NCBI GenBank assembly: GCA_902796425.1
Contig: CADBPC010000036.1
Location: 1-35,826 of the forward strand
DNA length: 35,826 nt
Direction: 5' to 3'
Source: an uncultured Lachnospiraceae bacterium
GTDB lineage: Bacteria; Bacillota; Clostridia; Lachnospirales; Lachnospiraceae
Position numbers and translations under genes: made by a program
Shown: positions 11,264 to 28,910 of the stretch, piece by piece
Position numbering within the stretch: the first letter of the stretch is position 1
Layout: each line of letters opens with the position of its first letter
Notes under the pieces: generated by a model
What the model saw: only the letters and a program-made list of their open reading frames with translations
What the model was told of the DNA's origin: nothing
Database searches by the model: none

Positions 11264-11705
11264 GCTGATGTATTTCCTCCTGATGATTCTCCATATATTC
11301 CTGAAGGATCAGATTCGCAGCCACCTGATCCACATAAGTTTTGTATTCCGAGAGCCGGATCCCCTGTTCCTTTAAGAGTTCTCGTGCCTCCATCGTCGTC
11401 AGCCTCTCATCCGACATCACTGTCCGGATGCCGGTTCTTTTCTCTACCATGGCACGAAAAGCAAGCGCGGCCTCTGCGCGCTCGCCAACAGTGTCATCCA
11501 TATTCAAAGGAAGCCCGACGACGATCAGGCGGACATCCTCTTCCCGGGCGATCTGCTCAATCCTTGCCAGCGTGCGGCGAAGCATTCCTTCCCGCTCGCG
11601 CCGGATTGTCTCCCTGGGCTGTGCTGTCTTAAGCAGACTGTCGCTCACCGCGACCCCTACGGTTTTCGACCCGTAGTCCAGTCCCATAATCCGCATATGC
11701 GTCAA
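11253..11705 (-). CDS. ruvX: RuvX/YqgF-type Holliday-junction resolvase-like nuclease
   Basis: The protein has up to 150 residues in an RNase H fold. MGLDYGSKTVGVAVSD gives the first catalytic aspartate, IVVGLPLNMDD the middle strand, and SDERLTTMEARELL the second acidic site, with DQVAANLILQ at the C-terminus. Family members are implicated in processing the 5' end of 16S rRNA precursor and possibly in recombination. The start is uncertain: TTG at 11705 has GGA 6 bases upstream, whereas ATG at 11696 fits the usual family N-terminus (MRIMGLDYG) but has poor spacing. It follows ireB by 12 bases and overlaps rnj. Confidence 0.92.
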   Translation of the reverse strand: MTHMRIMGLDYGSKTVGVAVSDSLLKTAQPRETIRREREGMLRRTLARIEQIAREEDVRLIVVGLPLNMDDTVGERAEAALAFRAMVEKRTGIRTVMSDERLTTMEARELLKEQGIRLSEYKTYVDQVAANLILQEYMENHQEEIHQLAE

Positions 11706-14816: not shown

Positions 14817-15806
14817 TCAGCCTTCCTTTTTTGCCGGCTCTTCTTTGCGCGTGTTTTCCGCAATCTTGCGTCTTGCCATCTGATAGGTATCAAAGCCGAT
14901 CGTCGCCAGCATGATTACGCCCTTCGCGACATACTGATAATACACATTCATTCCTGCCATCTGCATGCCGTTTCCAAGCAGCGCAATGATGAGAATACCT
15001 GCCACACAGCCGTTGATCTTTCCTTCACCGCCACGGATGGAAACGCCGCCCAGAAGGAGTCCCGTGATGACCGTAAACTCGGTTCCGACTGCGGTTGTCG
15101 CAGCTGCGGAGCCTGCTCTCGCCGTCAGGACTAAAGAAGCGATTCCGAGGAAGACCCCGGCCAGGACAGAAATGTAGATTTCCATCTTGTTGACATTGAT
15201 GCCTGCCAGTCTTGCTGCGTCCTTGTTGCCTCCAAGCGCGAAGATATAGCGTCCGAAATAGGTCTTGTTAAGGACAAAGCTGACCACAAAGCCAAGAATA
15301 ATGGTCATTAGAAGGGCAAAACTGAAGTTTGTGCCGAACAGTGTGCCCTGTCCGATGAACTTGTATGCTGTCGATGAGATGCCGACCGTCTTTGATGCTG
15401 AAATGACATACGAAAGGCCCTGATAGATAGTCATCGTACCGAACGTGATGAAGATTCTCGGGATTCCGAGAAGATGGCTCAGCACCGCATTGAGTGTGCA
15501 CAGGACAATCGCAATCAGAATCGTGAGTACGATCACGATCGGAAGCGGTATTCCCGCCTCTGTCATCATCTTGGCGGAAATAACTCCTGTGATACTCATC
15601 AGATAGCCGATGGAAAGATCCATGCCGCCGGACATCATGATCAGGGAAATACCAAACGCGGCGATCAGGACGTAGGCGTTCTGGTTCAGAATGTTCAGAA
15701 TATTCCTGGTGGTCAGGAAGTTGGGAGAAAAAGAGAAAAAGATTACACAGATGACCAGCAGCACCCATGCCAGGTTCCTGCGTGCAAAATCCAATACTTT
15801 ATTCAT
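14817..15806 (-). CDS. RbsC-type sugar ABC importer permease
   Basis: This 329-residue protein has about ten membrane helices of the BPD_transp_2 type. Landmarks are ISLIMMSGGMDLSIGYLMS near residue 55, FALGGNKDAARLAGINV near 190 (the coupling loop that contacts the ATPase), and LLLGGVSIRGGEGKING near 250. It forms the membrane channel for a monosaccharide-type substrate. AAAGGA lies 6 bases before the ATG, and the gene starts 15 bases after the ATPase gene ends. The sequence is that of the ribose/xylose/galactose importer class; the particular sugar cannot be read from it. Confidence 0.93.
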   Translation of the reverse strand: MNKVLDFARRNLAWVLLVICVIFFSFSPNFLTTRNILNILNQNAYVLIAAFGISLIMMSGGMDLSIGYLMSITGVISAKMMTEAGIPLPIVIVLTILIAIVLCTLNAVLSHLLGIPRIFITFGTMTIYQGLSYVISASKTVGISSTAYKFIGQGTLFGTNFSFALLMTIILGFVVSFVLNKTYFGRYIFALGGNKDAARLAGINVNKMEIYISVLAGVFLGIASLVLTARAGSAAATTAVGTEFTVITGLLLGGVSIRGGEGKINGCVAGILIIALLGNGMQMAGMNVYYQYVAKGVIMLATIGFDTYQMARRKIAENTRKEEPAKKEG

Positions 15807-15821
15807 GGCGATTCCTTTCTG

Positions 15822-17300
15822 TTATTGTAAACCTGAAGCGAGTTCCAGAACCCTGGACTGCGAGAACTCATCTCTGGAGAGCTCCCCTGTTATGCGTCCT
15901 TCATACAGCACCATCACACGGTCGCTCATTCCCAGGAGTTCTTCCATCTCCGATGAAATCATGATGATGGACATACCCTGTTCGACGAGATTATTCATCA
16001 GGTGGTAGATCTCCTGTTTTGCGCCGACATCGATTCCTCTGGTCGGTTCATCAAAGATCAGGATTTCTGTCTGCGCCGCAAGAACCTTTGCCACAACAAC
16101 CTTCTGCTGGTTTCCGCCGGAAAGGTTTTTGACCAGCTGCTTTACAGTCGGTGTCTTTATACTGAGCTTCTCTACATATTCATCGGCAAGCCGGTCCGCT
16201 TCTTTCTGGTCTACAACGGTCGCCTTACTGATTCTTCGAAGGCTCATGCTCGGAATATTCCACTGAATGGAGTACTCCAGGAAAGCTCCTTCGCGTTTTC
16301 TGTCTTCCGGAATCAGGCCGATTCCCGCTTCAATTGCATCGGATGTGTCTCTGAAATGTACCGGGTTTCCCTTCACCAGGATTTCACCCGAGGCCGGCCT
16401 GACATCTCCGAAGAGCATCTTTGCCAGTTCCGTGCGCCCTGCACCGACCAGTCCTGCCAGTCCGAGTATCTCGCCCTTTCTCAGATGAAGATTGATGTTG
16501 AAGTCTCCGTTGCCGGTGAGATTCCTGACTTCCAACACATTCTCTCCAAGCGTAACATTTCTTGAAGGGAAGGATTCTGTCAGTTCACGCCCAACCATCA
16601 TATTGATCAGATCCTGTCTGGAAACCTCATGAATCTTCTTCGTGGCGACGTACCGCCCGTCCCGGAGAATACTGACCCTATCAGAGATTTCAAAGACCTC
16701 GTCCATACGGTGACTGATGTAGATGATGGTCACGCCCTGTTCCTTGAGCTGACGGACGATCCGGAGCATATTCTCGACCTCAGCCACAGCAATCGCCGCG
16801 GAGGGCTCGTCCATGATGAGGACTTTACAGTTTTTACTGATTGCCTTTGCGATCTCGACCAGCTGCTGCTGTGCGGTGGAGAGGTCTCCGACCATACGGT
16901 GAGAGTCGATATGAACACCAAGCGACTCCATAAGTCTTGCCGCTTCTTTGTGCATTTTTTTAAAATCAGGAGAGATTGCGTTTCCTGTTTTGTCTCCCAG
17001 AAATATATTCTCCGCAATGTTCATTGACGGCACAACATTGAATTCCTGGTAGATTACTCCGATGCCGTGCTGCTTTGCCAGCGCGGGAGTCAGTTTGTCA
17101 AAAGACTCCCCGTTTATGATAACCTTTCCCGATGACGCCTCAATCGCGCCTGCAACGATCTTGATGAGCGTTGATTTGCCTGCCCCGTTTTCTCCCATGA
17201 TGGAATGAATCTCACCGGGCTCAAAGCTCAGCGATACATCGTCCAGCGCCACGACACCCGGATAGTTTTTCGTGATATGCTCCAGTTCCAGAATCGCCAT
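15822..17300 (-). CDS. RbsA/MglA-type double ATPase of the sugar importer
   Basis: A 492-residue protein with two fused nucleotide-binding domains. The first has Walker A GENGAGKST near residue 36, the signature DLSTAQQQ near 140 and Walker B VLIMDEPSAA near 160. The second has the usual altered P-loop GLVGAGRTE near 285, a full signature NLSGGNQQK near 395 and LIFDEPTRGID near 418. It powers the RbsC-type permease. I chose the ATG at 17300 with AGG 9 bases upstream; a GTG two codons earlier overlaps the ribosome site. It follows the binding-protein gene after 121 bases that contain a strong hairpin. Its intact motifs contrast with the degenerate homologue at 18722. Confidence 0.95.
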   Translation of the reverse strand: MAILELEHITKNYPGVVALDDVSLSFEPGEIHSIMGENGAGKSTLIKIVAGAIEASSGKVIINGESFDKLTPALAKQHGIGVIYQEFNVVPSMNIAENIFLGDKTGNAISPDFKKMHKEAARLMESLGVHIDSHRMVGDLSTAQQQLVEIAKAISKNCKVLIMDEPSAAIAVAEVENMLRIVRQLKEQGVTIIYISHRMDEVFEISDRVSILRDGRYVATKKIHEVSRQDLINMMVGRELTESFPSRNVTLGENVLEVRNLTGNGDFNINLHLRKGEILGLAGLVGAGRTELAKMLFGDVRPASGEILVKGNPVHFRDTSDAIEAGIGLIPEDRKREGAFLEYSIQWNIPSMSLRRISKATVVDQKEADRLADEYVEKLSIKTPTVKQLVKNLSGGNQQKVVVAKVLAAQTEILIFDEPTRGIDVGAKQEIYHLMNNLVEQGMSIIMISSEMEELLGMSDRVMVLYEGRITGELSRDEFSQSRVLELASGLQ

Positions 17301-17339
17301 TGTCACTTCCCTTTCTATGTTTTCCTTCTGAAAAGCAGC

Positions 17340-17421: not shown

Positions 17422-18576
17422 TTATTTATTTAGGAAGCTGTCCACGTTCTCAGCTGTAACCTTTGTTCCGGGCTCGCTGATGTAGCCGTTTTCATCCGCA
17501 TACTTGTTGTTCTGGCCGGTTGCAAGGCAGTACATGCTCATTGCAAGATCATCGCCGAGGTTGTAAGTGCCGCGGATCATGGATTCGTTTGTTCTGGAAA
17601 GGCCGATCTGCTCATAGGCAACCATCGAACTGTCCACACCGAAGATACCGAAGTGCTCTCTGTCGAGGGAGGCATCTCTCATATAGACCTCGTTGGAGCC
17701 GAGCTCGGAGTCAACACCGTAAGCAAGGATAACCTTCAGGTCAGGATATTTGCCGGTCATGATATCCGCATATTCCTGGGCCTTCATGTTTGCATCAGTC
17801 GCACCGCTAAGGTCGAACATCTCAACAACCTTTGCCTTACTGGTCAGCTGCTCGACGGTGTACATACCGTCAGTTCTTGCCTGGGATTCCTCTGTCTGGC
17901 TGTTGCCGATTACAGCAACCTCAATCGAGCCGTCCTCTGCATCCGGGAACGTGGCATCAATCCAGTCCGCAGCCATCTCGGCAGCGCCGACACCTGTCTG
18001 ATACTGATCTGTGCCCTGGCAGTATGTGTAAGTGCTTCTGTCATCCATCCATGTCGCGATGGGATAGACTTTGATACCCTGCTCAACAGCCTTTCTGCAG
18101 ACATCCTTGACGGCCTCTCTGTCGGAAACAAAGAGCATAATCGCGTCGCACCCCATGTTCATCAGGTTCTCGATGTCCGAGACCTGCGTCGCGGCATTTC
18201 CTTCGAAGGATACAGTGACCATCTCATAGCCACCCTCTTCGAAATACTTATGCATGGAATCGTCAAGTGCCGAGAAGAATTCCGCGCCAAGGGTCATGGT
18301 GGACATACCCAGCTTGGAGCCCTTCGGGAACCACTCTTCATCCTCATAGCCGATTCCTCTTTCTTCATAGGTCATATACTCCATGACCTCTCCTGCGGAC
18401 TCTGCAGCCTCACTGCTCTCCTCTGCAGTGCTTTCCGCTTCTTCGGTTTTTTCCTCCACAGTCTCCTGCGGTGCAGGCTCTGCTGCTGCCGGTGCCGGTG
18501 CGGAACCGGATCCGCAGGCGGCAAGACTTGCGGCCATGGTCATAGCAATTACTGCTGCTGCAATTCTCTTTTTCAT
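17422..18576 (-). CDS. Sugar-binding lipoprotein of the RbsABC-type importer
   Basis: A 384-residue precursor. The signal peptide MKKRIAAAVIAMTMAASLAAC ends in the lipobox LAAC (Cys21), so it is anchored to the outer face of the membrane. A long Ala/Pro/Glu linker (to about residue 65) precedes a periplasmic-binding type 4 fold. That fold has LGMSTMTLGAEFFSAL, AIMLFVSDREAVKDV, and ILAYGVDSELGSNEVYM near the hinge. It captures the sugar for the importer. I chose the ATG at 18576 because GAGAGG lies 5-6 bases upstream and the signal peptide starts there; an in-frame reading to 18654 adds only 26 unrelated residues. It has its own promoter. Confidence 0.94.
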   Translation of the reverse strand: MKKRIAAAVIAMTMAASLAACGSGSAPAPAAAEPAPQETVEEKTEEAESTAEESSEAAESAGEVMEYMTYEERGIGYEDEEWFPKGSKLGMSTMTLGAEFFSALDDSMHKYFEEGGYEMVTVSFEGNAATQVSDIENLMNMGCDAIMLFVSDREAVKDVCRKAVEQGIKVYPIATWMDDRSTYTYCQGTDQYQTGVGAAEMAADWIDATFPDAEDGSIEVAVIGNSQTEESQARTDGMYTVEQLTSKAKVVEMFDLSGATDANMKAQEYADIMTGKYPDLKVILAYGVDSELGSNEVYMRDASLDREHFGIFGVDSSMVAYEQIGLSRTNESMIRGTYNLGDDLAMSMYCLATGQNNKYADENGYISEPGTKVTAENVDSFLNK

Positions 18577-18644
18577 TTTTACCTCTCTATGGATGTATTT
18601 GTTTTTCCGGCGGACCCGAACCGGTCCCTGCCTGTTTCGATATG

Positions 18645-18673
18645 AATATAGCATCCGGCTTTACCTGCGAGAG
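18645..18673 (-). promoter_or_regulatory. Activator-type promoter of the binding-protein gene
   Basis: On the minus strand a good -10, TATATT (18645-18650), has no -35 match at 17 bases: the site at 18668-18673 reads CTCTCG. A weak -35 overlapped by a direct-repeat element is typical of promoters that depend on an AraC-family activator. The leader to the start codon is about 65 bases. Confidence 0.6.
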
Positions 18674-18721: not shown

Positions 18722-20017
18722 TTACGGACAGATAATCCGCTCGCACCAGCGGTCGATTTCGGACAATACGCCGGAAAAGAGAATAACTCTGATACCATCC
18801 TTTTTCAGATGTCTCAGATACACCAGAAACTCCTCTTCCTCGGACAGATCCATTCCCCAGAACGGGTTCTCAAAGAGCATTGTCTTCGGTTTTGAAAGCT
18901 CCCACCGGCAGGCGGACAGGATTTTTTTTTCAACCAGCGAAAGACCGGCGACCGGCGTTTTGTCTCCTTCGATATTCGTCACCTCGTGAAATCTTGCCAT
19001 CACATTATCTTCCATGCTCCGACGCACCGGCAAAAGGAGTCCTCCGGAAACACGGCGCGGTATCGACATCAGGACATTCTCCCTGACCGTCATATTTTCA
19101 CACAGCATCAATGCACTCTTTCTCGGAATCAGGACAGCTCCATCCACACAGAACCTGTCTTCCGGAAAATCGGGAAGCCTTACGTTCTGCTGCCATGTCA
19201 GGCGGTTTTCCCTGCGGATGGTCCTTAGTCTGTCCTGAAGAGATCTTCCGGTCTCGCCCATCAGGTCGAGAATTCCTTCAAACGACTTCTCCCCGTCTGC
19301 AGCTTCGGAAGAATCCCTGAACCCGCTTTTGTCCGACCCCGGTCTGTTCGCCGTAAGCTCTTCCAGCTCTCTGCCATACCACTCCATCAAATCCCTTCCC
19401 CGGCTCATTCTCTGTACCCTGTCACTGATTTTGGCCAGTTCTCCCCGCCTCTCTGACAGAATTAAAAAAGACACTCCCTGGTCCCTGTACCGGCAAAGGA
19501 GTGCCGCAAGCTGTGGTATTTCCTGTTCTTCATATGTCATCGTCGTACAGTCCAGGACCACAAGAGAGGCATGCTGCATTCTGGCCTTGACAATACTGAG
19601 GAGGTGTTTCTGCGTCTGTGTCAGCTCCCGGACGCACATATCCGCCCGTATGGACAGTCCCGATTCCTCCAGGTACCGCTCCGCTTTCCCGACGACCTGC
19701 TTATTCCGATAGATCCCATACAGGGGTCTTCCGGACTCAATCTCCATGTTCTCCGCCACAGTCAGGTTTTCAATCAGATTCCTTCCTTCCTGGCTGATAT
19801 AAATGCTGTCCGCAGACCCGGCAGGTCCCAGGACTTTGCCGTCCGTCGTGTTCCGGTCTGTGTCCAGCAGTTCAAAGAGTGTCCTGATGCCGCTCCCCGC
19901 CGGGCCGTAGACGTAGACGATCTCACCCCGGCAGACCTCGAGATTATATCCTCTTAAGTCTCCCTGGCTCTTCTCTGATTTTTTTGTTACATCGACAATC
20001 CGCAGTACTTCCTGCAT
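18722..20017 (-). CDS. Degenerate RbsA-like double ATP-binding-cassette protein (pseudo-ATPase)
   Basis: This 431-residue protein aligns along its length with sugar-importer double ATPases but has lost their catalytic motifs. In domain 1 the P-loop is GPAGSGIRT (residues 38-46, the lysine displaced by Ile-Arg), the signature is ELTQTQKHLL (131-140), and Walker B ends LDC, with Cys for the catalytic Glu. Domain 2 lacks a recognisable P-loop; its signature is GLSLVEKK (358-365) and Walker B is MLFENP (380-385). The reading frame is intact, so this is not a decaying pseudogene. It lies between the YesM kinase gene and the importer genes. A regulatory or scaffolding role between importer and kinase is inferred. 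Confidence 0.8.
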   Translation of the reverse strand: MQEVLRIVDVTKKSEKSQGDLRGYNLEVCRGEIVYVYGPAGSGIRTLFELLDTDRNTTDGKVLGPAGSADSIYISQEGRNLIENLTVAENMEIESGRPLYGIYRNKQVVGKAERYLEESGLSIRADMCVRELTQTQKHLLSIVKARMQHASLVVLDCTTMTYEEQEIPQLAALLCRYRDQGVSFLILSERRGELAKISDRVQRMSRGRDLMEWYGRELEELTANRPGSDKSGFRDSSEAADGEKSFEGILDLMGETGRSLQDRLRTIRRENRLTWQQNVRLPDFPEDRFCVDGAVLIPRKSALMLCENMTVRENVLMSIPRRVSGGLLLPVRRSMEDNVMARFHEVTNIEGDKTPVAGLSLVEKKILSACRWELSKPKTMLFENPFWGMDLSEEEEFLVYLRHLKKDGIRVILFSGVLSEIDRWCERIICP

Positions 20018-20060
20018 ACGCAGCCAAAGTCCCCCTCAAAGCATCTGTCCGGTACAGCTC

Positions 20061-21002
20061 TTATGTTGTCTGTCCCTGATCCTGTATTTCATATTTCGAT
20101 CTTGCAAAGTCGTCAACCTTCGGTATTGTGACCACCGCCGATGTTCCTTCACCCAGAGCGGAGCGGTAATGAATTCCGTATTCCTCTCCGAATGTCAGCC
20201 GGATTCTGGCGTTCACATTCTGAATGGCAATGCCGTTGTTCCTTCCGGTTCTTGTCGGCACGCGGATTTTGGAGTCCTTCAGCCTGCCGTTCAGCGCAAA
20301 GAGTGCATCCTCTGTCATGCCTGCCCCGTTGTCACTGACTATAATTACCACATTGGACTGAGTCTCATAAAGGCGTATATTCACCTTACCTTTTCTGCGC
20401 ACCTTTTCCAGGCCGTGTGTGACAGCGTTCTCAACAAGCGGCTGAAGGGTCAGCTTTGGCAGATAATACTGGCCAATCTGGTCGTTTTCCATGTCAATCT
20501 GCATTTCAAACCGGTCACCGAAGCGCTGCTTTTGAATATAGTAATAATCCCTTATGTGCTCTGTCTCCTCCTCGATACGCACCAGATTATCCCGGTTGCT
20601 GATCGCATAGCGGAAAAACCGGGAAAGCTTCTCTGTCATGGCGGCAATATCTTCCTGGCCTTCCAACAGAGCGTGTGCCCGGATCGTATCAAGTGTATTG
20701 TAAAGAAAATGAGGATTGATCTGATATTGAAGGGCGGAAAAATCAGACCTTCGGCGCAGGAGCTCGAGCTGTTCAATCTCGCTCTCGTCCCATTTCACGG
20801 TTCGGTCCTTCGCACGTACCTGTGAGATGAGATATTTCTCGATATTTTCTTCCCGGAGCGTCTGCCATAAAAGAATTACCGATGCCGCCAGCTGCGCGGC
20901 TCCGGAAAGCAGAATGAAAACGCTTCCTTTCAGCAGACCGACGCCTGCCAGAGCAAGCGCCAGGACAATCATCACAATTTCAATATACCGCAGCTTTTTC
21001 AT
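20061..21002 (-). CDS. YesM/LytS-type sensor histidine kinase with minimal sensor region
   Basis: A 313-residue kinase. Two membrane helices (about residues 7-24 and 28-47) are joined by only a few residues, so there is almost no extracellular domain. The phosphoacceptor block LQYQINPHFLYNTLDTI holds His98 (His_kinase family PF06580). The ATPase domain has LTLQPLVENAVTHGLEK as N box, VSDNGAGM as G1 and GIAIQNVNARI as G2. Usual YesM proteins carry a large extracellular Cache domain and a HAMP domain; both are missing. It pairs with the YesN-like regulator encoded just upstream. Its ribosome site is weak (AGAGCGGG). It resembles intramembrane-sensing kinases that take their signal from a membrane partner. 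Confidence 0.9.
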   Translation of the reverse strand: MKKLRYIEIVMIVLALALAGVGLLKGSVFILLSGAAQLAASVILLWQTLREENIEKYLISQVRAKDRTVKWDESEIEQLELLRRRSDFSALQYQINPHFLYNTLDTIRAHALLEGQEDIAAMTEKLSRFFRYAISNRDNLVRIEEETEHIRDYYYIQKQRFGDRFEMQIDMENDQIGQYYLPKLTLQPLVENAVTHGLEKVRRKGKVNIRLYETQSNVVIIVSDNGAGMTEDALFALNGRLKDSKIRVPTRTGRNNGIAIQNVNARIRLTFGEEYGIHYRSALGEGTSAVVTIPKVDDFARSKYEIQDQGQTT

Positions 21003-21062
21003 CCCGCTCTGACACCTGTGCTTATAAATATCTCTCCTGCAAAGCCGCTCCTTTCCGGTTCT

Positions 21063-22670
21063 TTATCCGTACAGGCGCCTGTAGTCCGAGGGCTTGATCC
21101 CCGTCGCTTTTTTAAAAAGCTTTGCATAATATTTTTCATCCGGGTACCCGACCTGCAATGCGATCTCTTTTACTGACAGGCCGGTCATGGACAGAAGGCG
21201 CTGTGACTCCTCGATTCGGACCTGCGTCAGATATTCACTGAAGCCGACCCCGGTCTTCTCCTTAAAGACACGGCTGAGGTAGGACGCACTCACACCCGCC
21301 TGCCTGGCAGCATCCTCCAGAGAGATCGCTTCGGCATATCTGCTGTGCACAAAGCGGACCGTCTCCTCAACCGGCCTTGCCATTCTCTCACTGAGCTGGC
21401 GATGTTTGGCGGTGGTGTATTTTTCAACCTCCTGATAGTATGCCCGGATTACCTGATCCGCGCTTCTGACCTTCTGCTCAGCCTCTTCCATCGCCATGCC
21501 GAGATCTTCCCGCTCCTGATCATCCTGGACGGCGCCAAGAACCGCATCCCGGACCCGGCCGAAAACCCTCAGAAGATCACCCGGAAACGGGTTCTGCAGA
21601 TTCTGTACCCTGAATGATATCTTCTGGAAAAGCTCTCCCAGCTCATCACTTCTGAAGTACCTGACGCCGTCACTGATGGCTTTGAGATCTTCTGCGGAAA
21701 ACACGGCGTCCGGCGCGATATGTCTCAGATCCGCGATCTGGCTGTAGCGGATAATCTGGCTTCCGTAGAATATGAAGCGCCCATATGATGAAATCAGCGC
21801 CTGGCGCGCCGCCGCCGGCAGCAGCGGAGTATCTGTCTGCGGCTCGCTCTGACCGATGGTCACCCTGAACTCCCCGTAGATTTCTCCAAGATCACGTATG
21901 CTGTAATACAGCATCGAAATTCCTGATGAAACAGCTGATCTGTCTTTGGCGCAATAGTTCAGGAGAAGGTAGTCCCTGCGGCAGTCGGGAAAATGAAAAA
22001 ACCTCACCCTGTCGGGAAATGACTCTTTCAGGAATCTGCCGAGTTTATCAAAATAGGCCGTTCGCTTTGCGCCTAAGATCTCTGAAAGACTTGTATCGAT
22101 GACTAGAACCTGATACAGCGGATGAGTTATCTGTATCCCGTACTTTTCTTCGATCATCTCTCTGCTGCAGCTGACCGGATCCCCTGAACTGCCTGACTTT
22201 AAAATCTCCTCCAGAAACAGCTTTCTTCTATTTTCTTCCTCTGCCGACTGATACGATTCCAGTGACGCCCTGTCCTGAGAAGCCAGGCGTTTCTGGTCCA
22301 CCAGACGGCAGACCTTGTAAAGGATCTCGTTAAGCTGCTGCTCCTCCACAGGCTTCAGCAGATAGTCGACAACATTGAGCTGAATCGCGCTCCTGGCATA
22401 CTCAAAATAACGGTAGCCTGAAAGGAGAACAAACAGGATATCCGGCTCCTTCCGATTCACTCGTTCTATCAGCTCCAGGCCGTCGTAAACCGGCATCTGT
22501 ATATCAGAGAGAACAAAATCCGGCCTGTTCTTCAGAATGCTTTCCAGCGCGCTTTCTCCGTCGTAACACTCATCAATGATTTCTATCCCAAGCTGTTCAA
22601 AGTGCCCAAGCTTCCTGACAAGCTGAATGAGCATTTTCTCATCGTCTGCGATGATCATCCGATAACTCAT
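21063..22670 (-). CDS. YesN-type response regulator with AraC DNA-binding domain
   Basis: A 535-residue protein. The receiver domain covers residues 1-120, with acidic pair DD at 9-10, phosphoacceptor Asp56 in FVLSDIQMPVYDG, and the conserved Lys in YLLKPVEE. A long middle region of the YesN type, without a named motif, follows. The C-terminal AraC helix-turn-helix pair is recognisable from EAISLEDAARQAGVSASYLSRVFKEKTG and SVKEIALQVGYPDEKYYAKLFKKATG. The start is ATG at 22670, with AGGGGG 4 bases upstream; a TTG at 22703 would overlap the preceding gene. It probably activates the importer and glycosidase genes on phosphorylation by the adjacent kinase. Confidence 0.94.
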   Translation of the reverse strand: MSYRMIIADDEKMLIQLVRKLGHFEQLGIEIIDECYDGESALESILKNRPDFVLSDIQMPVYDGLELIERVNRKEPDILFVLLSGYRYFEYARSAIQLNVVDYLLKPVEEQQLNEILYKVCRLVDQKRLASQDRASLESYQSAEEENRRKLFLEEILKSGSSGDPVSCSREMIEEKYGIQITHPLYQVLVIDTSLSEILGAKRTAYFDKLGRFLKESFPDRVRFFHFPDCRRDYLLLNYCAKDRSAVSSGISMLYYSIRDLGEIYGEFRVTIGQSEPQTDTPLLPAAARQALISSYGRFIFYGSQIIRYSQIADLRHIAPDAVFSAEDLKAISDGVRYFRSDELGELFQKISFRVQNLQNPFPGDLLRVFGRVRDAVLGAVQDDQEREDLGMAMEEAEQKVRSADQVIRAYYQEVEKYTTAKHRQLSERMARPVEETVRFVHSRYAEAISLEDAARQAGVSASYLSRVFKEKTGVGFSEYLTQVRIEESQRLLSMTGLSVKEIALQVGYPDEKYYAKLFKKATGIKPSDYRRLYG

Positions 22671-22699
22671 TTTTCCCCCTACCAGTTCCTGATCTTCTT

Positions 22700-24679
22700 T
22701 CAAATGCGTGTGATGCCGTCGTCGTCATATCTGAGATAATCCTCCGGGCGGGCATCGAAGGTGATATACTTCAGCGGGCAGGCGAACGCGTCGTCTGCAC
22801 TCCTTACCGGATCCGGCGACGCGGAAAGGTCCGCGAAGGGAAGGCAGTGTCCTTTGCGAAGAAATACCGCCGCTTCATTCAGCTTAAGCGGAATGAAATG
22901 ATCTCCATCCGGCAGGATTTCTTCGTCATAATCATTATACGCCCTGAAACGGATCAGTTTCATGTCTTCGGGAAGATACACATACCTGCCGACTGCGTTC
23001 TGTTCATAAACCGGAGCGATCATGATGCTCTCGCCGATGAGGAGCTGGTCCTCGACACGGCGTGCCCTCTCATCATCCCCGTAGACAAACGCAAGCGGCA
23101 GCGCATACATATCATCTCCAAGCGCCGCCTTCATAAATTCGGAATAGATATATGGAAGCAGCGCATACCGGAGCCGGATAAGGTCACGGAACTGCCTGAC
23201 CTTCGGGAATCGGTAGAACTCCTGGAAGCGCGTGTTCAGCTCGGAGTGGTTCCTGAATAAGGGCATGAAGATACTGACGCCCAGCCACCTCATCAGAAGG
23301 TCCTCCGTAACGTCTGCGCCAAACCCGCCTGTGTCCGCCCCGCTGTACAGAAAGCCGCACATGTTCAGGGCCGGCATCTGCTGGATATTGAGCCTTATAT
23401 GGCTCCACCAGGACCTGTTGTCCCCGGTCCACACGCCGGCATAGCGGTGCATCCCGATGTAAGACGAGCGGGAAAAAATCAGTATTCTCTTATCCGGGCA
23501 CAGTTCCTCAAAGGCCTCTCCTGCCGCGCGCGTCATCTGGAAGCCGTAGATATTGTGCACTTTATCGTGCCGCACACGCACGCCGTCATAATTGTGGTAG
23601 AAGCTCTTATAGTCGTCCCGGTTATTCGCAAGAGACAGGACCAGTCCTTTGAACTCGGACAGCTCCCTGATGCCCAGATTCCTGCCCCTGTAGTTCTCCA
23701 TCTTCCGGAACACATCCTGCAGCCGGTCTTCCGTAAAGAAGATGGACGGCTCGTTCATATCGTTCCAGAATCCGTCAATGCCCTTGTCCAGAAGGAAAGA
23801 ATAGCATCTGCCGAACCATTTCCTTGCCTGTGTATTAAGGAAGTCGGGAAAATGCACTCTTCCGGGCCATACGGCCGCAACCAGTTCGCTTCCGTCCTCT
23901 TTCGTTACGAAATACTTGTTTCTGACGCCTTCCTCATAGACGCTGTAGCCTTCCTCAATCTTTACGCCCGCATCGATGATCGGGACAAGGTGCACGCCCT
24001 GCTCCTTCATTTCCGCAACAAAGTCTCCAAAGGAAGGGAAGGTCTCCTCATTGATCGTAAAGTCCTTATATTTCTCCATGTAGTCAATGTCGAGGTAAAC
24101 ACTGTCAACCGGTATGTCTTCTTTACGATATGTATCGACCACTTTCCGCACGTCGTCCGCGGTTAAATAGCCCCATCTGCTCTGGCCGTAGCCAAAGGCC
24201 CACTTCGGCGGGATATAGCTCCTGCCCGTAAGTCCCCGCAGCTCCTTTACGATCCTGCGGGGAGTGCCCTCCGTGATCAGATAGATATCCGCGTCAAAAT
24301 CATCAAAGCGGATGGTCAGCGTACTGTAATCCGTAAATCCGATATCAAAATGAACAACCCCCGGCGTATCGACATATAACCCGAACAGGGCGTTTTCGCC
24401 AAGAAGCATTATGAAATTCTGCGACGCGTACAGGGACTTCTTTTCTTCCAGATGGAACGGATCATCCGTATTGTCACTCGTGTAAATCCAGCCGCGCTTG
24501 TTCATTCCGCGGACCGTCTCGCCAAGCCCATAGACAAGGTCATTTTCCTGCATTCGGTAAGACAGGGCCTTTCCCGCCCGGTCAACAGTCCATCCGGGCA
24601 GCGCCCCTTCTTCAGCCTCGATCCTTGTGACGACAGAGGCCGTGGGAATCGGATTGCCGATCGTGTATTTTCTGATCAT
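22700..24679 (-). CDS. GH31 alpha-glucosidase, isomaltase-like
   Basis: A 659-residue family 31 glycoside hydrolase without a signal peptide, hence cytosolic. The nucleophile is Asp307 in GFWNDMNEP and the acid/base is Asp420 in GVWTGDN. Trp169 lies in GQSRWGYL. These three numbers agree with those I recall for Ro-alphaG1 of Ruminococcus (Blautia) obeum, where Trp169 favours alpha-1,6 linkages. Release of glucose from isomaltose-type or other alpha-glucosides is therefore likely. The ribosome site AGAGGAAA comes from a duplicated piece of the upstream gene. It lies in the same direction as the GH38 gene, the hydrolase gene and yesN, with gaps of 20-40 bases. Confidence 0.92.
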   Translation of the reverse strand: MIRKYTIGNPIPTASVVTRIEAEEGALPGWTVDRAGKALSYRMQENDLVYGLGETVRGMNKRGWIYTSDNTDDPFHLEEKKSLYASQNFIMLLGENALFGLYVDTPGVVHFDIGFTDYSTLTIRFDDFDADIYLITEGTPRRIVKELRGLTGRSYIPPKWAFGYGQSRWGYLTADDVRKVVDTYRKEDIPVDSVYLDIDYMEKYKDFTINEETFPSFGDFVAEMKEQGVHLVPIIDAGVKIEEGYSVYEEGVRNKYFVTKEDGSELVAAVWPGRVHFPDFLNTQARKWFGRCYSFLLDKGIDGFWNDMNEPSIFFTEDRLQDVFRKMENYRGRNLGIRELSEFKGLVLSLANNRDDYKSFYHNYDGVRVRHDKVHNIYGFQMTRAAGEAFEELCPDKRILIFSRSSYIGMHRYAGVWTGDNRSWWSHIRLNIQQMPALNMCGFLYSGADTGGFGADVTEDLLMRWLGVSIFMPLFRNHSELNTRFQEFYRFPKVRQFRDLIRLRYALLPYIYSEFMKAALGDDMYALPLAFVYGDDERARRVEDQLLIGESIMIAPVYEQNAVGRYVYLPEDMKLIRFRAYNDYDEEILPDGDHFIPLKLNEAAVFLRKGHCLPFADLSASPDPVRSADDAFACPLKYITFDARPEDYLRYDDDGITRI

Positions 24680-24693
24680 TTCTGTTTCCTCTA

Positions 24694-24750
24694 AAACACC
24701 AGCTCCGGGAAATGCTTTTTATTTTCCCTCAAACACCAGCTCCAGGAAAT
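24694..24750 (-). repeat. 37-bp tandem duplication of the esterase 3' end
   Basis: The 20-base segment at 24731-24750, inside the last codons of the alpha/beta hydrolase gene, recurs at 24694-24713 with one change. Similarity extends further, with small indels. The second copy lies in the gap before the GH31 gene. Its equivalent of the end of the hydrolase gene has become AGAGGAAA, the GH31 ribosome site. Confidence 0.8.
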
Positions 24751-25690
24751 TCCTGGCAAGGAGCGGCCAGACTGCCACTTCCGGCATCGCCTCTCTTTCT
24801 GGCTGATTATCATTTTCCGGCCAGTCCAGAACGGCCGCCGCAGCTTCGGAAACTTCAACCTCGCCTCTTTTTACAGCTTCAACGGTATTCGTTGTCTGCT
24901 CCAGAGTATAGGGATCCCCGAAATCATTTGCCGCCCATCTCTCATCCGCCAGGGATACTCCGTGCACTCCTCTTGGGAAAACATGGTGCTCGAAGGTCAC
25001 GCCGCACTCCTTTAACGCCGATGCGAACAGATAACTGTTCTCCACCGGGACCGTTTCATCTGTCGCGGTCTGCCACAGAAAACACGGCGGCGTATCCTTT
25101 GTCACCTGCGTTTCCAGAGAATAATACTGAAGCTCTTCCTGCGTCGGCTGGAAGCCAAGAAGCGCATCAAAAGATCCCTGATGCCTCTTTTCTCCCGATG
25201 TGATTACCGGATAGCTCAGTATGGCGGCGTCCGGCCTGCAGGAAACTGCGGATAACTCAGGATCTGTCTCGGTCACATCGCCATAATGGACGCAGAGGCT
25301 CCCGCACAGATGGGCTCCCGCGGAAAAGCCGCAGAGCGCTATTTTCCCCGGATCGATTTTATAATCCGCCGCGTTTTTGCGGATCAGGCGGACCGCCCTG
25401 CCGAGGTCTCTCATCGGCTGGTCCTTTAACGGTTCCATCTGCAGCATATTCGTTGTATATGTGAAAACAAATGCATTGAAGCCGAAATCATAGAACTTCT
25501 CTGCCACGATCCCCGCCTCGGTCGGCGAAACCACCCAGTATGCTCCGCCCGGTACAACAATGACCGCCGGCCTTATCTCATCATCCGGGTGAATATAAGT
25601 CCTGAAATTCGGCTTAAAACCGAATGCCAGCGGGTAGCTGTATTCTCCCTCAGTCCAGACATCAATACGTTCGCTCATCATCATTTTCAT
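24719..25690 (-). CDS. Alpha/beta hydrolase, probable carbohydrate esterase
   Basis: A 323-residue alpha/beta-hydrolase of the BD-FAE/esterase-lipase group. The oxyanion region is VVPGGAYWVVSPTEAG. The nucleophile serine is in CGFSAGAHLCGSL, the aspartate in TATDETVPVENS, and the histidine in PRGVHGVSL, in the standard order. No signal peptide is present, so it works inside the cell, probably removing acyl groups from imported oligosaccharides. The start among several Met codons is unclear; ATG at 25690 has GAGG 5 bases upstream. It begins 2 bases after the stop of the GH38 gene and is translated with it. Its true acyl substrate is unknown. Confidence 0.85.
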   Translation of the reverse strand: MKMMMSERIDVWTEGEYSYPLAFGFKPNFRTYIHPDDEIRPAVIVVPGGAYWVVSPTEAGIVAEKFYDFGFNAFVFTYTTNMLQMEPLKDQPMRDLGRAVRLIRKNAADYKIDPGKIALCGFSAGAHLCGSLCVHYGDVTETDPELSAVSCRPDAAILSYPVITSGEKRHQGSFDALLGFQPTQEELQYYSLETQVTKDTPPCFLWQTATDETVPVENSYLFASALKECGVTFEHHVFPRGVHGVSLADERWAANDFGDPYTLEQTTNTVEAVKRGEVEVSEAAAAVLDWPENDNQPEREAMPEVAVWPLLARNFLELVFEGK

Positions 25691-25692
25691 CT

Positions 25693-28600
25693 TCACCTCA
25701 CAAATTTCAGCGTAATGATTTCAAAGTTTGTCACATTCAGTTCGACGCCGCCGTCCGTGACCTGCAGCTCTCTTATATTATTTTCCAGAAGATCGCAGAG
25801 GTAAACAGCTAAGTACTCAAAGGCAGGTTTTATTTTCACATTTGTTTTCTGGTCATACGCCTCGTAAAGCCGTACAATGACCGAATCATCCGCCTCCGCC
25901 TTTTTGATTGTCTCAATCAGGACATTTTCCCGGTCGCAGGAAACCAGTGAATAGTTCTCCGGAAGAGCCCCGCCTGCGGAAGGAATTCTCTTTGCCATGA
26001 GCGGCGTGTTCAGAAGATACGCCTCCCTGAGCGTCTTTCCTGTCCTGAAGTCTCCCTCATGCGGATAAAGGGAATACGTAAAGCTCTGCATTCCGCGGTC
26101 CGCGTCAGGATCGGGGTACGTCGCCGCCTTCAGGAGGGAGAGGCTCATGATATTCCCGTCGACGCTGTAGCCGTACTTGCAGTCATTCAGGATACTGACA
26201 CCATAGTTTCCTTCGGAGAGGTCCGCCCATTTATGCGCGCAGACTTCGAATTTCGCTGCATCCCACCCCGTGTTCTGATGCGTGGGGCGCTGCAGGTGGC
26301 CGAACTGGATATCATAAGTGGCGTTCATGCTGCGGATCGTGACAGGGAAGGCCGCCTTCAGCAGCACGTGGTCCTCATGCCAGTCGATGACTGTCTCAAA
26401 ATCGATTCTCTTTGAGCCCGGTCTTATGCGGATATTCTGCATGATTTCGGAATGTCCGTATTTCCTGTTTACCCTGATTCCGTCCGGAAGGACCTGCACG
26501 CTGCAGACGTTATCCGCGATCCATTTCTTCTGTTTATAGTAGCTGGTTATCTCCCATGCGTCATAGGCGCGCGGATAGTCCTCATAGACCTCGAGGACAT
26601 TTCCCTCCCGGCCCTCTTCGATGACCTCCCTGCAGGCGGATTTGTCGTATACGGAAACAATGTGATACCTGTCGTTGAACGTCACTCTTATAACATCATT
26701 TTCAAGCAGGCGGTCTCCGACCAGGATGCCTGCCTGAGTGTCTGCAGCGCTGCTGCCGGGCATTTCGGGGAGCACACTTCTTCCGGCCTCTTCAGGGATC
26801 ACTTTCCAGCCGTGCGCGGGGATGCTCCCGGCCTGATAAGCCGTCCCGTCAGCGGTTACGATATCGCTGATCTCAAAGGGTGTCGGATTGTAGACAAAAA
26901 TGCCGCCGGCTGTGTCCAGATTGTCCTGAATTGCTTCCAGCTTCTCCTCGAGAATGTTCCGGCCTTCCGACAGGATCCTTTCGTATTCCCGGTCCGTCAC
27001 CTTATAGACCGGCCCGATGGATGAGCCGGGGATGATATCGTGGAACTGGTTCAGCAGGATGTTTTCCGTATTTCTTCGGATCAGATCCGACGGATATTCA
27101 CCGCCGTTCAGGATCATGTCCGCAGCTGCCGCACTCTCAAGCATCAGGTACAGCAGCTCGCTTTTGCGGTTGTTTTTCTTATTCCTTGCCTGGGAGGTAT
27201 AGGTGCCGCGGTGCATCTCGAGGTACATTTCGCCGACCCATTTCGGCGTATGACGCAGCTCCTTCGTATTCTTATTAAAGTCCTCTTCGATCCTGCGGAA
27301 AAAGTCCCCGGCCTTTTCGATTTTTGCCTTCGGGATTCCCGGAATTCCGTACTTTAACCTCTCATAGTTTTCCATCATCTCCGGTGTGGGACCGCCGCCT
27401 CCGTCTCCATAGCCGAAGGTTACCAGAGTATTATCGGTCAGCGACTTGTTTTTATAGTTTTCCCAGGTGCTCTTTAGGGTCTTCGGATCCAGCTGGCAGA
27501 CGTAGGTCTTTATAATAGACGCAAAAACCCGGCTTCCGTCTATACCCTCCCACAGGAAGGTGTCATTCGGAAGCTTGTTTGACTCACTCCAGCTCATCTT
27601 GGCGGTAAAGAACTGATCCACGCCGCACTTTCGCAGAATCTGCGGCAGGGCTCCGCTGTAGCCGAAAACATCCGGGAGCCAGAGTATGTGGCTGTCTACG
27701 CCAAACTCTTCCTTCAAAAACCGTTTCCCGTAAAGGATCTGGCGTATCAGGCTCTCCCCGTGGATGAGGTTCGTGTCCGCTTCCAGCCACATGGCGCCTT
27801 CCGGCTCCCACCTTCCCTCTGCAGCCGCTTTCTTTATTTCCCCGTACAGCTCCGGATCATTTTCTTTGACGAACCGATACAGCTGGGGCTGGCTCGACAT
27901 GAAAATATATTCCGGGAAGCGTTTCATCATCTGAATGACTGTCGAGAAGCTCCGCTGCGCCTTTTCTTTTGTCTGGGCAACGGTCCAGAGCCACGCGACA
28001 TCGATATGCGTGTGGCCGATGCAGCTGACGGACGCCTCTTTTCCGCCGCAGATTCCGTTATAGAAAATTTCCTTCAGGAATCCTCTGACCTCCCGGACGC
28101 TTTTCCTGAATCCGTCGGAGCGGACGTCCCTGAGGTCAAGGAGAAACAGCGCCTTGTCCAGGCAGTCCCGGATCCTGATATAATCGTAAGAATTCTCGCC
28201 CAGCTCCAGCATCGCAAGATAGGGGACATGGATGTCGTAATACAGAGCTTCCGTCTCCGGATCGATGACGTCCAGCCGGATCGATACGGGGAAATTGCCT
28301 CCCAGCATGCCGGTATAGAGATACAGGTACAAATCATATTCCCGTCCGGGCTCCAGCGGGTACCAGGTATGATTTACGTCAAGCGCCTGCTGCGCGCTGC
28401 CGCGGGTAAATACGGTGAACTGGGGATTTGTCGCATCCCACTGTCCTTCACGCCCAGTCTTTACACTGAGCCGCAGCTCCGGGCTCACCTTAAGACCGGC
28501 CGGCGCCTCGCCGACGGTTCTGCCGCAGGCATCAGCCGGATAGTCCGGCGTCTCGCCGCAGGTACTGCCGCAGGCATCGGCTGACAGATCTTCCGGGACT

Positions 28601-28809
28601 CTGACATGCAGCCAGTAATGTGTATCGATCCCGTCAAAAAGTGTTTTCTCCGAGGCTGCTGTCCACCCGGCGTCCTCCGCAGGAGGAATGTTGGATGTCT
28701 TGTACTCCGGGCACGGAATATATTCATATTCCAGCGGGATGGAATCAAGGGTTCGAAGCTGTTCGAGCTTCTCTGTCATGACACGAATTTTTTCTTTTAT
28801 GAAATCCAC
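25693..28809 (-). CDS. GH38 alpha-mannosidase
   Basis: A 1038-residue family 38 glycoside hydrolase. The zinc-binding start of the catalytic domain is GHTHIDVAWLWT (residues 265-276), the nucleophile is Asp380 in LWLPDVFGYSGALPQIL, and NQFHDIIPGSS near residue 620 carries a further zinc ligand. Beta-sandwich domains fill the C-terminal half. I chose GTG at 28809 because AGGAGG lies 5 bases upstream; this gives the usual family length. No signal peptide means it cleaves imported manno-oligosaccharides in the cytosol. An insertion at about residues 76-105 consists of two 15-residue repeats. It is the first gene of the locus. Confidence 0.94.
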   Translation of the reverse strand: MDFIKEKIRVMTEKLEQLRTLDSIPLEYEYIPCPEYKTSNIPPAEDAGWTAASEKTLFDGIDTHYWLHVRVPEDLSADACGSTCGETPDYPADACGRTVGEAPAGLKVSPELRLSVKTGREGQWDATNPQFTVFTRGSAQQALDVNHTWYPLEPGREYDLYLYLYTGMLGGNFPVSIRLDVIDPETEALYYDIHVPYLAMLELGENSYDYIRIRDCLDKALFLLDLRDVRSDGFRKSVREVRGFLKEIFYNGICGGKEASVSCIGHTHIDVAWLWTVAQTKEKAQRSFSTVIQMMKRFPEYIFMSSQPQLYRFVKENDPELYGEIKKAAAEGRWEPEGAMWLEADTNLIHGESLIRQILYGKRFLKEEFGVDSHILWLPDVFGYSGALPQILRKCGVDQFFTAKMSWSESNKLPNDTFLWEGIDGSRVFASIIKTYVCQLDPKTLKSTWENYKNKSLTDNTLVTFGYGDGGGGPTPEMMENYERLKYGIPGIPKAKIEKAGDFFRRIEEDFNKNTKELRHTPKWVGEMYLEMHRGTYTSQARNKKNNRKSELLYLMLESAAAADMILNGGEYPSDLIRRNTENILLNQFHDIIPGSSIGPVYKVTDREYERILSEGRNILEEKLEAIQDNLDTAGGIFVYNPTPFEISDIVTADGTAYQAGSIPAHGWKVIPEEAGRSVLPEMPGSSAADTQAGILVGDRLLENDVIRVTFNDRYHIVSVYDKSACREVIEEGREGNVLEVYEDYPRAYDAWEITSYYKQKKWIADNVCSVQVLPDGIRVNRKYGHSEIMQNIRIRPGSKRIDFETVIDWHEDHVLLKAAFPVTIRSMNATYDIQFGHLQRPTHQNTGWDAAKFEVCAHKWADLSEGNYGVSILNDCKYGYSVDGNIMSLSLLKAATYPDPDADRGMQSFTYSLYPHEGDFRTGKTLREAYLLNTPLMAKRIPSAGGALPENYSLVSCDRENVLIETIKKAEADDSVIVRLYEAYDQKTNVKIKPAFEYLAVYLCDLLENNIRELQVTDGGVELNVTNFEIITLKFVR
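28502..28591 (-). repeat. In-frame 45-bp repeat inside the mannosidase gene
   Basis: Two adjacent copies with a 45-bp period encode the 15-residue units SADACGSTCGETPDY and PADACGRTVGEAPAG. They lie in the N-terminal part, well before the catalytic domain, and probably form a surface loop. Confidence 0.75.
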
Positions 28810-28833
28810 GGCTTCCTCCTGTCTGTCCTGTTT

Positions 28834-28847
28834 ATAATAACAGTATA
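28834..28847 (-). promoter_or_regulatory. Probable -10 region of the mannosidase operon
   Basis: Two overlapping candidates occur on the minus strand: TATACT (28842-28847) and TATTAT (28834-28839), 25-35 bases before the GTG start. Neither has a good -35 at 16-18 bases, so an activator is probably needed. The 14-base near-palindrome TGTTATTATAAACA covers the second candidate. Confidence 0.4.
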
Positions 28848-28864
28848 CATGATCGGCACATAAG

Positions 28865-28910
28865 ATGAGCAGGCCAAAGCTGCTCATTTTGCGGCTTAAG
28901 CCTGCTCATT
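28865..28910 (-). promoter_or_regulatory. Triple TGAGCAG repeat upstream of the mannosidase gene, candidate operator
   Basis: On the minus strand AATGAGCAG occurs at 28902-28910 and again at 28880-28888, exactly 22 bp apart. The match extends leftwards as CGAAGAATGAGCAG against CGCAAAATGAGCAG. A third copy lies in opposite orientation at 28865-28872 and can pair with either of the first two. Spacing of two helical turns fits a dimeric regulator; the alternative pairings would also allow an RNA switch. Confidence 0.55.

Follow-up and report, generated by a model that had tools for sequence, protein, structure and literature searches.

A conserved three-gene cassette in which a dead RbsA-like ATPase may couple a sugar importer to a sensor-less YesM-type kinase

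Here, we analysed a stretch of 35,826 nucleotides (the window) from an uncultured Lachnospiraceae bacterium (GenBank assembly GCA_902796425.1, contig CADBPC010000036.1, positions 1 to 35,826). Its minus strand carries, in this order, genes for a GH31 glycosidase, a YesN-type response regulator, a short YesM-type histidine kinase, an RbsA-like double pseudo-ATPase, a sugar-binding lipoprotein, an RbsA ATPase and an RbsC permease. The regulator, the kinase and the pseudo-ATPase form a cassette held by dozens of sampled bacterial genomes. From sequence comparison, we lean towards a reading in which the dead ATPase would couple an importer of the RbsC type to the sensor-less kinase of this conserved cassette. 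The genes are the following (positions of the window):

18722–20017, minus strand: RbsA-like double pseudo-ATPase of 431 amino acids (aa), domain 2 without the P-loop subdomain
20061–21002, minus strand: short YesM-type histidine kinase of 313 aa; its catalytic core is intact, its two membrane helices are adjacent, and it has neither a sensor nor a HAMP domain
21063–22703, minus strand: YesN-type response regulator with receiver and AraC helix-turn-helix (HTH) domains by Pfam; the listed frame starts at TTG 22703, the likelier start is ATG 22670
17422–18654, minus strand: the importer's sugar-binding lipoprotein (Peripla_BP_4), whose true start is probably near 18577, downstream of the listed ATG
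15822–17306, minus strand: intact RbsA-type double ATPase, 1.4 kilobases (kb) downstream of the pseudo-ATPase
14817–15806, minus strand: RbsC-type permease (BPD_transp_2)
22700–24679, minus strand: GH31 glycosidase, directly abutting the regulator on its upstream side; possible regulon member

A preliminary description of this DNA had taken the 431-residue protein for an open frame that aligns with sugar-importer double ATPases, and the frame is indeed open and RbsA-like. Pfam finds ABC_tran at residues 21-156 and nothing else, and every one of the ten best NCBIfam matches is an ABC ATPase, for the most part a double ATPase of the RbsA, YtfR, AraG or XylG type, with scores far below the curated cut-offs; the first half resembles RbsA-type double ATPases and the second matches ABC ATPases weakly. 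The normal RbsA that had been placed 1.4 kb downstream is present, and its motifs served as our reference. In comparison to it, the window protein reads GPAGSGIRT vs GENGAGKST in P-loop 1 (Lys lost), LDCTT vs MDEPS in Walker B1 (Glu lost, Asp kept), LSLVEKK vs LSGGNQQ in signature 2 and ENPFWGMD vs DEPTRGID in Walker B2; the domain 1 switch His is gone and the P-loop 2 segment is absent. The described losses of the P-loop 1 Lys, the domain 1 Glu and P-loop 2 stand, but the loss of LSGGQ from domain 1 fits the class only, since the working window RbsA itself has LSTAQQQ at that place. A deviating signature and one degenerate site are reported for B. subtilis RbsA in excerpts of PMC11466899. The motif losses make ATPase death a firm prediction for the window protein. 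This protein and L060 (430 aa) are the shortest members of the family. Its predicted structure, from a three-row alignment, is a weak model (mean predicted local distance difference test score 62.7, predicted template modelling (TM) score 0.46), and Foldseek matched it to ABC nucleotide-binding domains (NBDs) with query TM-scores of 0.32-0.42 among the 50 matches listed, which supports the fold class and nothing more.

The kinase had been described as having two close membrane helices and neither Cache nor HAMP domain, and both the Pfam and the hydropathy scans agree. In the window kinase Pfam recognises His_kinase and HATPase_c and neither HAMP nor any sensor domain; the hydrophobic blocks cover residues 3-36 and 26-46 by a simple hydropathy scan, and by eye the helices are parted by about three residues (about KGS). 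His_kinase (PF06580) and HATPase_c were found in all 24 kinases scanned, none of which gave a Pfam match to a Cache-type sensor or to HAMP. By the same hydropathy scan, the hydrophobic blocks were merged, overlapping or at most 6 residues apart in 41 of the 42 kinases measured, the sole exception being L172 with 94 residues between them. In an alignment of 24 kinases the phospho-acceptor His (His98) and the ATP-binding residues are invariant, and the window kinase has intact His, N-box and G1; the His-box pattern that we used missed L170 and L182, yet the box is present in both. The linker from the membrane to the His box is recognisably common to many kinases of the family. Regulator domains were scanned in the window copy only.

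Searches with the single pseudo-ATPase sequence failed because the family is so divergent. Among relatives, 2 of 61 genomes gave a match at E 1e-15, namely G000, the window's genome, and an ordinary RbsA (L069); genome contigs gave five loci, of which L010 is an ordinary RbsA by motif, and the first-ranked match among plasmids had 27% identity. The kinase-guided search succeeded. In 392 genomes of the order the short kinases ranked top. We fetched 24 loci with no criterion but the score of the kinase and the length of its frame, and in 23 of them (L045-L067) the gene immediately downstream of the kinase codes for an RbsA-like pseudo-ATPase. One of these, L061, is half-alive, with one P-loop kept. 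The 24th, L068 in genome G304, has a short kinase frame and no pseudo-ATPase; its kinase lies below the profile threshold and it was left out of the loci counted below. A profile built from these kinases and that of the window reached at least 350 bits in 15 genomes beside G000 among 391 of the class, and in 3 beside G000 among 299 of the phylum. At about 290-331 bits, where L170 and L171 fall, short family-like and longer kinases are mixed with no clean separation. Five candidates were scored per genome in the order and class kinase searches and in the reverse search, and up to 26 in the genus search, so the genome counts are lower bounds and absences are soft.

We read 44 family loci at gene level, window included; they come from the tops of the kinase lists plus deliberate exceptions (L168-L172) and are not a random sample. 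The pseudo-ATPase lies on the same strand directly downstream of the kinase in 39 of them (L181 is cut by the contig end), and in nine of the 39 the two genes overlap by 4 bases. No pseudo-ATPase was found within 1.5 kb on either side at 48 other YesM-type loci; this control set comprised 49 loci outside the group (L036-L044, L086-L099, L103-L128), 48 of them independent, because L086 is the kinase of L172, and two of them hold a fragment of an ordinary RbsA. In the reverse direction, a pseudo-ATPase profile was run on 291 genomes of the class; 12 matches, that of the window among them, scored 355 bits or more and all lie beside a short kinase, and below them the scores drop to 322 bits, where full-length RbsA-like proteins begin. 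This cut misses the known divergent members L169 (197 bits) and L170 (285 bits), and an unlinked gene in genome G752 (see below) is not in that list. The linkage to YesM/YesN genes is strong in both directions.

Family members carry at least a dozen distinct family labels (f1, f5, f17, f22, f24, f31, f45, f48, f61, f65, f73, f87, f127 and f194), and four cassettes were read in the single genome G418 (L047, L052, L058, L062). In the phylum of the spirochaete assembly of L010, none of 198 genomes has a family-grade pseudo-ATPase; the best match, at 244 bits, is a frame of 631 aa. Within the window's genus the cassette is patchy, by transfer or loss, since only G000 of 61 genomes (itself counted) has a match of pseudo-ATPase grade.

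All 40 pseudo-ATPase frames are open; the frames were picked by length, still no family locus is missing the gene through a broken copy. The pseudo-ATPase family is under purifying selection. In four close pairs omega (the ratio of nonsynonymous to synonymous rates) is 0.041, 0.070, 0.115 and 0.177 for the pseudo-ATPase and 0.115, 0.024, 0.073 and 0.104 for the kinases. Synonymous divergence was finite for the pseudo-ATPase in four of five close pairs (L177/L178 is saturated), the window copy is in none of the four, and omega may be biased, because some of the frames used begin ahead of the probable start codon and run into the end of the kinase gene. Frameshift-rich decay, which had been considered for this gene, thus has 40 open frames and low omega in the four measured pairs against it.

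The family also has a common origin. In a tree of 36 RbsA proteins with one Nup-like outgroup (FastTree local supports), 35 pseudo-ATPases and L061 form one clade with support 0.966, and all 38, with the P-loop-bearing L171 and L172 at the base, form one with support 0.998; the order of L171 and L172 has a support of 0.292 at the node above L172. Because these two basal, P-loop-bearing ATPases also adjoin regulator-kinase pairs, the association of an RbsA-like ATPase with the kinase probably came before the loss of its ATP sites, a provisional order given the long branches.

In L171 (3800-5470) and L172 (2950-4443) the RbsA-like ATPase keeps its P-loop or P-loops and stands upstream of the regulator, and in L061 (4247-5827) a relative in the downstream position keeps P-loop 1 intact and has lost the Walker B1 Glu. 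With P-loops kept and other motifs lost beside regulator-kinase pairs, these three look like stages of the loss. Among the 44 loci, a fully intact ATPase homologue in the downstream position was found in G752 only, where the kinase of L168 is directly followed by an intact RbsA-RbsC pair instead of the pseudo-ATPase. The same genome holds exactly one match of pseudo-ATPase grade (L188, 571 bits; the next is 306), alone on another contig, so that L168 and L188 are a natural unlinked pair. At L169 a divergent pseudo-ATPase lies on the opposite strand. Additional partial RbsA-like reading frames lie near the divergent members L067 (15932-16701) and L169 (10775-11632).

Across the family, all 23 members searched match the RbsA, XylG and AraG models, below curated cut-offs in the one member shown, and align with intact RbsA over the full length. 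ABC_tran recurs in 21 of the 23 and four other Pfam families weakly match one member each; there is no model specific to the pseudo-ATPase among the Pfam matches or among the 25 of 174 NCBIfam matches listed. An able ATP site, with P-loop, signature and Walker B Glu, was not found in the pseudo-ATPases. The Lys of the P-loop 1 column is kept in 15 of 40 members, the Walker B1 Asp in 6/40 and Glu in 7/40, and a Lys or Arg in P-loop 2 in 4/40 (two have gaps); the first Gly column of signature 2 has Gly in none of the 39 readable members. The window protein is without the signature 2 Gly, the P-loop 2 Lys/Arg and the Walker B1 Glu, and L053 keeps both the Lys and the Asp-Glu in domain 1. A P-loop pattern match in L049 proved to be a chance one outside the P-loop column. 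Judged by these columns, the pseudo-ATPases are likely dead for hydrolysis in most members.

We also compared conservation along the protein with that of RbsA, in 34 members (L187, L186, L175, L185, L178 and L181 dropped as near-duplicates or incomplete, then a 70% identity filter) and 33 RbsA proteins left by an 80% filter. The lowest relative conservation is seen in Walker A2 (0.42), signature 2 (0.48), the post-Walker A2 part (0.55), Q2 (0.57), the C-tail (0.58) and the linker (0.61), followed by Walker B1 (0.64), Walker B2 (0.65) and Walker A1 (0.66). The highest values, for segments with boundaries chosen after alignment, belong to the segments beyond the two Q-loops (0.88 and 0.83), the helical segments (0.84 and 0.80) and the stretch after the first Q-loop Gln (0.82), and each post-Q-loop segment has a near-invariant Asn (29/34 and 33/34). 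The Q-loop and helical regions are what the ATPase of an ABC importer turns towards the coupling helices of its permease. Catalytic sites are among the most decayed parts, not the only ones.

The usual place of the cassette is beside an RbsA/RbsC importer operon. Over 40 loci (the 39 and L061), a same-strand RbsA is present in the stretch read in 32 (L175 and L176 are cut by the contig end, and that of L173 is known from the reverse profile search). In 8 loci RbsA lies upstream of regulator and kinase, L053 and L058 having one downstream too, and these importer-upstream loci keep the order regulator-kinase-pseudo-ATPase. At L058 a single cassette has RbsA-RbsC pairs on both flanks. The 12.5 kb read at L061 hold two permeases of the RbsC type and lack an RbsA. 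Correlated divergence was measured over 25 loci holding all five genes, with L187, L186, L175, L185, L178, L181, L171 and L172 dropped, L061 and L068 not entered, and the pseudo-ATPase of L188 used for L168. The partial correlations are 0.40 for regulator-kinase, 0.52 for kinase-pseudo-ATPase, 0.41 for pseudo-ATPase-RbsA, 0.71 for RbsA-RbsC, 0.33 for regulator-pseudo-ATPase, -0.01 for kinase-RbsA and about zero for kinase-RbsC. This chain fits a pseudo-ATPase that stands between the kinase and the importer. At the 7 importer-upstream loci the values are 0.59 for kinase-pseudo-ATPase, 0.14 for regulator-kinase and 0.34 for regulator-RbsA.

Linkage, surviving conservation and correlated divergence suggest, indirectly, that the dead ATPase may dock on the permease or the kinase and report the state of the importer. 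In the mechanism that we propose, and to which we give slightly better than even credence, the dead ATPase would bind the RbsC-type permease dimer at the usual place of RbsA without powering transport, resulting in a non-pumping receptor form of the importer or in a dead ATPase sitting beside the pumping form. A sugar-loaded binding protein docking outside would change the conformation of the permease, the change would pass through the dead ATPase to the two helices and the linker of the kinase, and the kinase activity so set would determine that of YesN. With the importer as its sensor, the kinase would have no need of a sensor domain. A broader claim, which we regard as possible yet somewhat doubtful, is that the cassette represents a class of three-component signalling. 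In this class a dead importer ATPase would serve a sensor-less kinase as its sensor-coupling subunit, and one permease with its binding protein would act by turns as a pump, when joined by RbsA, and as a receptor, when joined by the dead ATPase; the kinase would have acquired the ATPase while this was still active.

Several observations weigh against the importer acting as the sensor. No same-strand RbsA was seen in 8 of the 40 loci (L048, L061, L064, L065, L067, L170, L179, L181), of which three (L064, L179, L181) come from short contigs or run into a contig end and L170 has its importer encoded on the opposite strand. What chiefly speaks against a strict need for RbsC comes from G419, the genome of L048, where no ribose-type importer was recognised elsewhere and the only other RbsA-class match, on another contig, is Nup-like by eye; a ribose-type importer may be dispensable. 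G419 also holds a double permease frame of unclear kind. At the importer-upstream loci the pseudo-ATPase-RbsA partial correlation is just 0.13 (21 pairs, noisy), and gene adjacency may explain part of the chain. Non-catalytic parts (post-Walker A2, C-tail, linker) decayed as well, and the conserved segments were delimited after the fact, the Q1 segment beginning after the Gln itself. Finally, some members may bind nucleotide weakly, since 15 of 40 keep the P-loop 1 Lys and L053 also the Asp-Glu. As a separate observation at L048, a frame upstream of the regulator (10871-11542) is by eye the end of a xylulokinase, and the contig ends there; this hints at a pentose signal at a locus without a local importer.

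The main rival, which we rate as rather unlikely, makes the dead ATPase a purely cytosolic regulator of the kinase that binds its linker and responds to a signal in the cytoplasm, be it a nucleotide, a sugar phosphate or another protein; the importer would be no more than a regulon member. It would account for the tight divergence of kinase and pseudo-ATPase (r 0.903, the highest in its comparison; over the 25 loci r 0.921, second to 0.925 for RbsA-RbsC, with the partial value of 0.52), for the kinase linker shared by many members and for the loci without a nearby ribose-type importer. It sits less well with the post-Q-loop and helical segments being best conserved while Walker A2 and signature 2 decay, with RbsA at 32 of the 40 loci and with the permeases of L061, which stand there with no RbsA in view. 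The signal flow could also be reversed, with the dead ATPase as a brake, in competition with RbsA for the permease, and its amount as the only thing that the kinase system sets. Co-location with RbsA/RbsC and homology to RbsA agree with such a brake; however, the pseudo-ATPase follows the kinase and not the importer, the order being unchanged in the 8 of 40 loci with the importer upstream, and all 12 top-grade reverse-search matches lie beside a short kinase, a point weakened by the unlinked G752 gene. We consider the brake quite improbable.

That the gene is a functionless, decaying rbsA duplicate is barely credible. The lost motifs and the rapid divergence (a median identity of 21% for 35 members) are what such decay would leave, but the open frames, the omega of 0.04-0.18 in four pairs, the near-constant gene order and the single old clade reject it for the family. 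A recent loss confined to the window's own copy is conceivable; selection on it has no close pair to measure, because only G000 in its genus has the gene at that grade. The coupling of importer and kinase through the dead ATPase is the reading that we prefer.

Some further features of the window should be mentioned. Upstream of the GH31 gene, the minus-strand frames at 25693-28887 and 24719-25696 are by eye a GH38-type glycosidase and an alpha/beta hydrolase, and the three genes together suggest a cluster for oligosaccharide use. Elsewhere among the loci read, GH31-like frames occur near L065, L176 and L185 only. Between the binding-protein gene and rbsA, a stem-loop of 14 pairs with a weak T tail (17371-17340, minus strand) possibly sets a surplus of binding protein over the importer; in the overall scan such sites were no more frequent than in shuffles.

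Few cases have been studied in depth, and it is still an open question where sensor-less kinases obtain their signal and how expression is matched to sugar import. If our proposal is true, a recurring and long-kept dead importer ATPase beside one class of kinases would offer a genetic handle on transport-coupled sensing. There is also a warning for annotation: the pseudo-ATPase genes are likely misnamed as importer ATPases, since their best general matches are models of ABC-transporter and sugar-importer ATPases, though most of them are not expected to power transport. A full-text search of open-licence papers in PubMed Central, which leaves most subscription papers and all preprints outside, turned up no account in which a YesM-type kinase has a pseudo-ATPase for a partner.

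Several known systems resemble the cassette in part. Like YesM/YesN pairs, it joins PF06580 and HATPase_c with an intact His to a regulator with receiver and AraC HTH, but its kinases are without the extracellular Cache-type sensor and HAMP. The phosphate system PstSCAB-PhoU-PhoR shares with our proposal an accessory protein between an ABC importer and a kinase. That accessory is PhoU, whereas here it would be a dead relative of the importer ATPase, and no PhoU-family match occurred in the 23 members scanned; PhoU has a fold other than ABC, and PhoR does not belong to the YesM-type kinases. In the available part of PMC5775613, the kinase is proposed to read importer conformation via PhoU, which is reported to interact with the ATPase PstB and the kinase PhoR. 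RbsA belongs to the same double-NBD class as the pseudo-ATPases and is predicted, in the excerpts of PMC11466899, to occur as one RbsA per two RbsC; it is reported to have one degenerate site, whereas the pseudo-ATPases are kinase-linked and show motif loss in domains 1 and 2 alike.

In BceAB-BceRS, a kinase without an extracellular sensor is informed by an ABC transporter (flux sensing), and the window-type kinase resembles it in lacking such a sensor and in its two adjacent helices. According to the parts of PMC10314905 and PMC7828314 at hand, BceS has a HAMP domain and packs its helices against the permease largely through lipids, and the transporter, which handles antimicrobial peptides, has an active ATPase; the kinases described here have no HAMP, and those parts mention no dead ATPase for the Bce module. 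The window permease is BPD_transp_2 and not BceB-like with a large extracellular loop, the adjacent permeases of other loci being recognised by similarity to it. XylFII-LytS and CuaD-CuaS-CuaR likewise tie a sensor kinase and regulator pair to sugar ABC importers. There, in the passages of PMC10384115 available to us, the sugar-binding protein is read through a large extracellular part of the kinase (CuaS has 627 aa, helices at 30-49 and 316-339 and a HAMP domain, and CuaR is a YesN/AraC-class regulator), a part that the kinases of our cassette do not have. By analogy, the Pst and Bce systems can be taken as precedents for an ABC transporter that drives a kinase, and XylFII-LytS and CuaD-CuaS-CuaR as those for kinase-regulator pairs tied to sugar importers. 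The cassette would add to transporter-coupled two-component signalling, with the dead ATPase as its new element.

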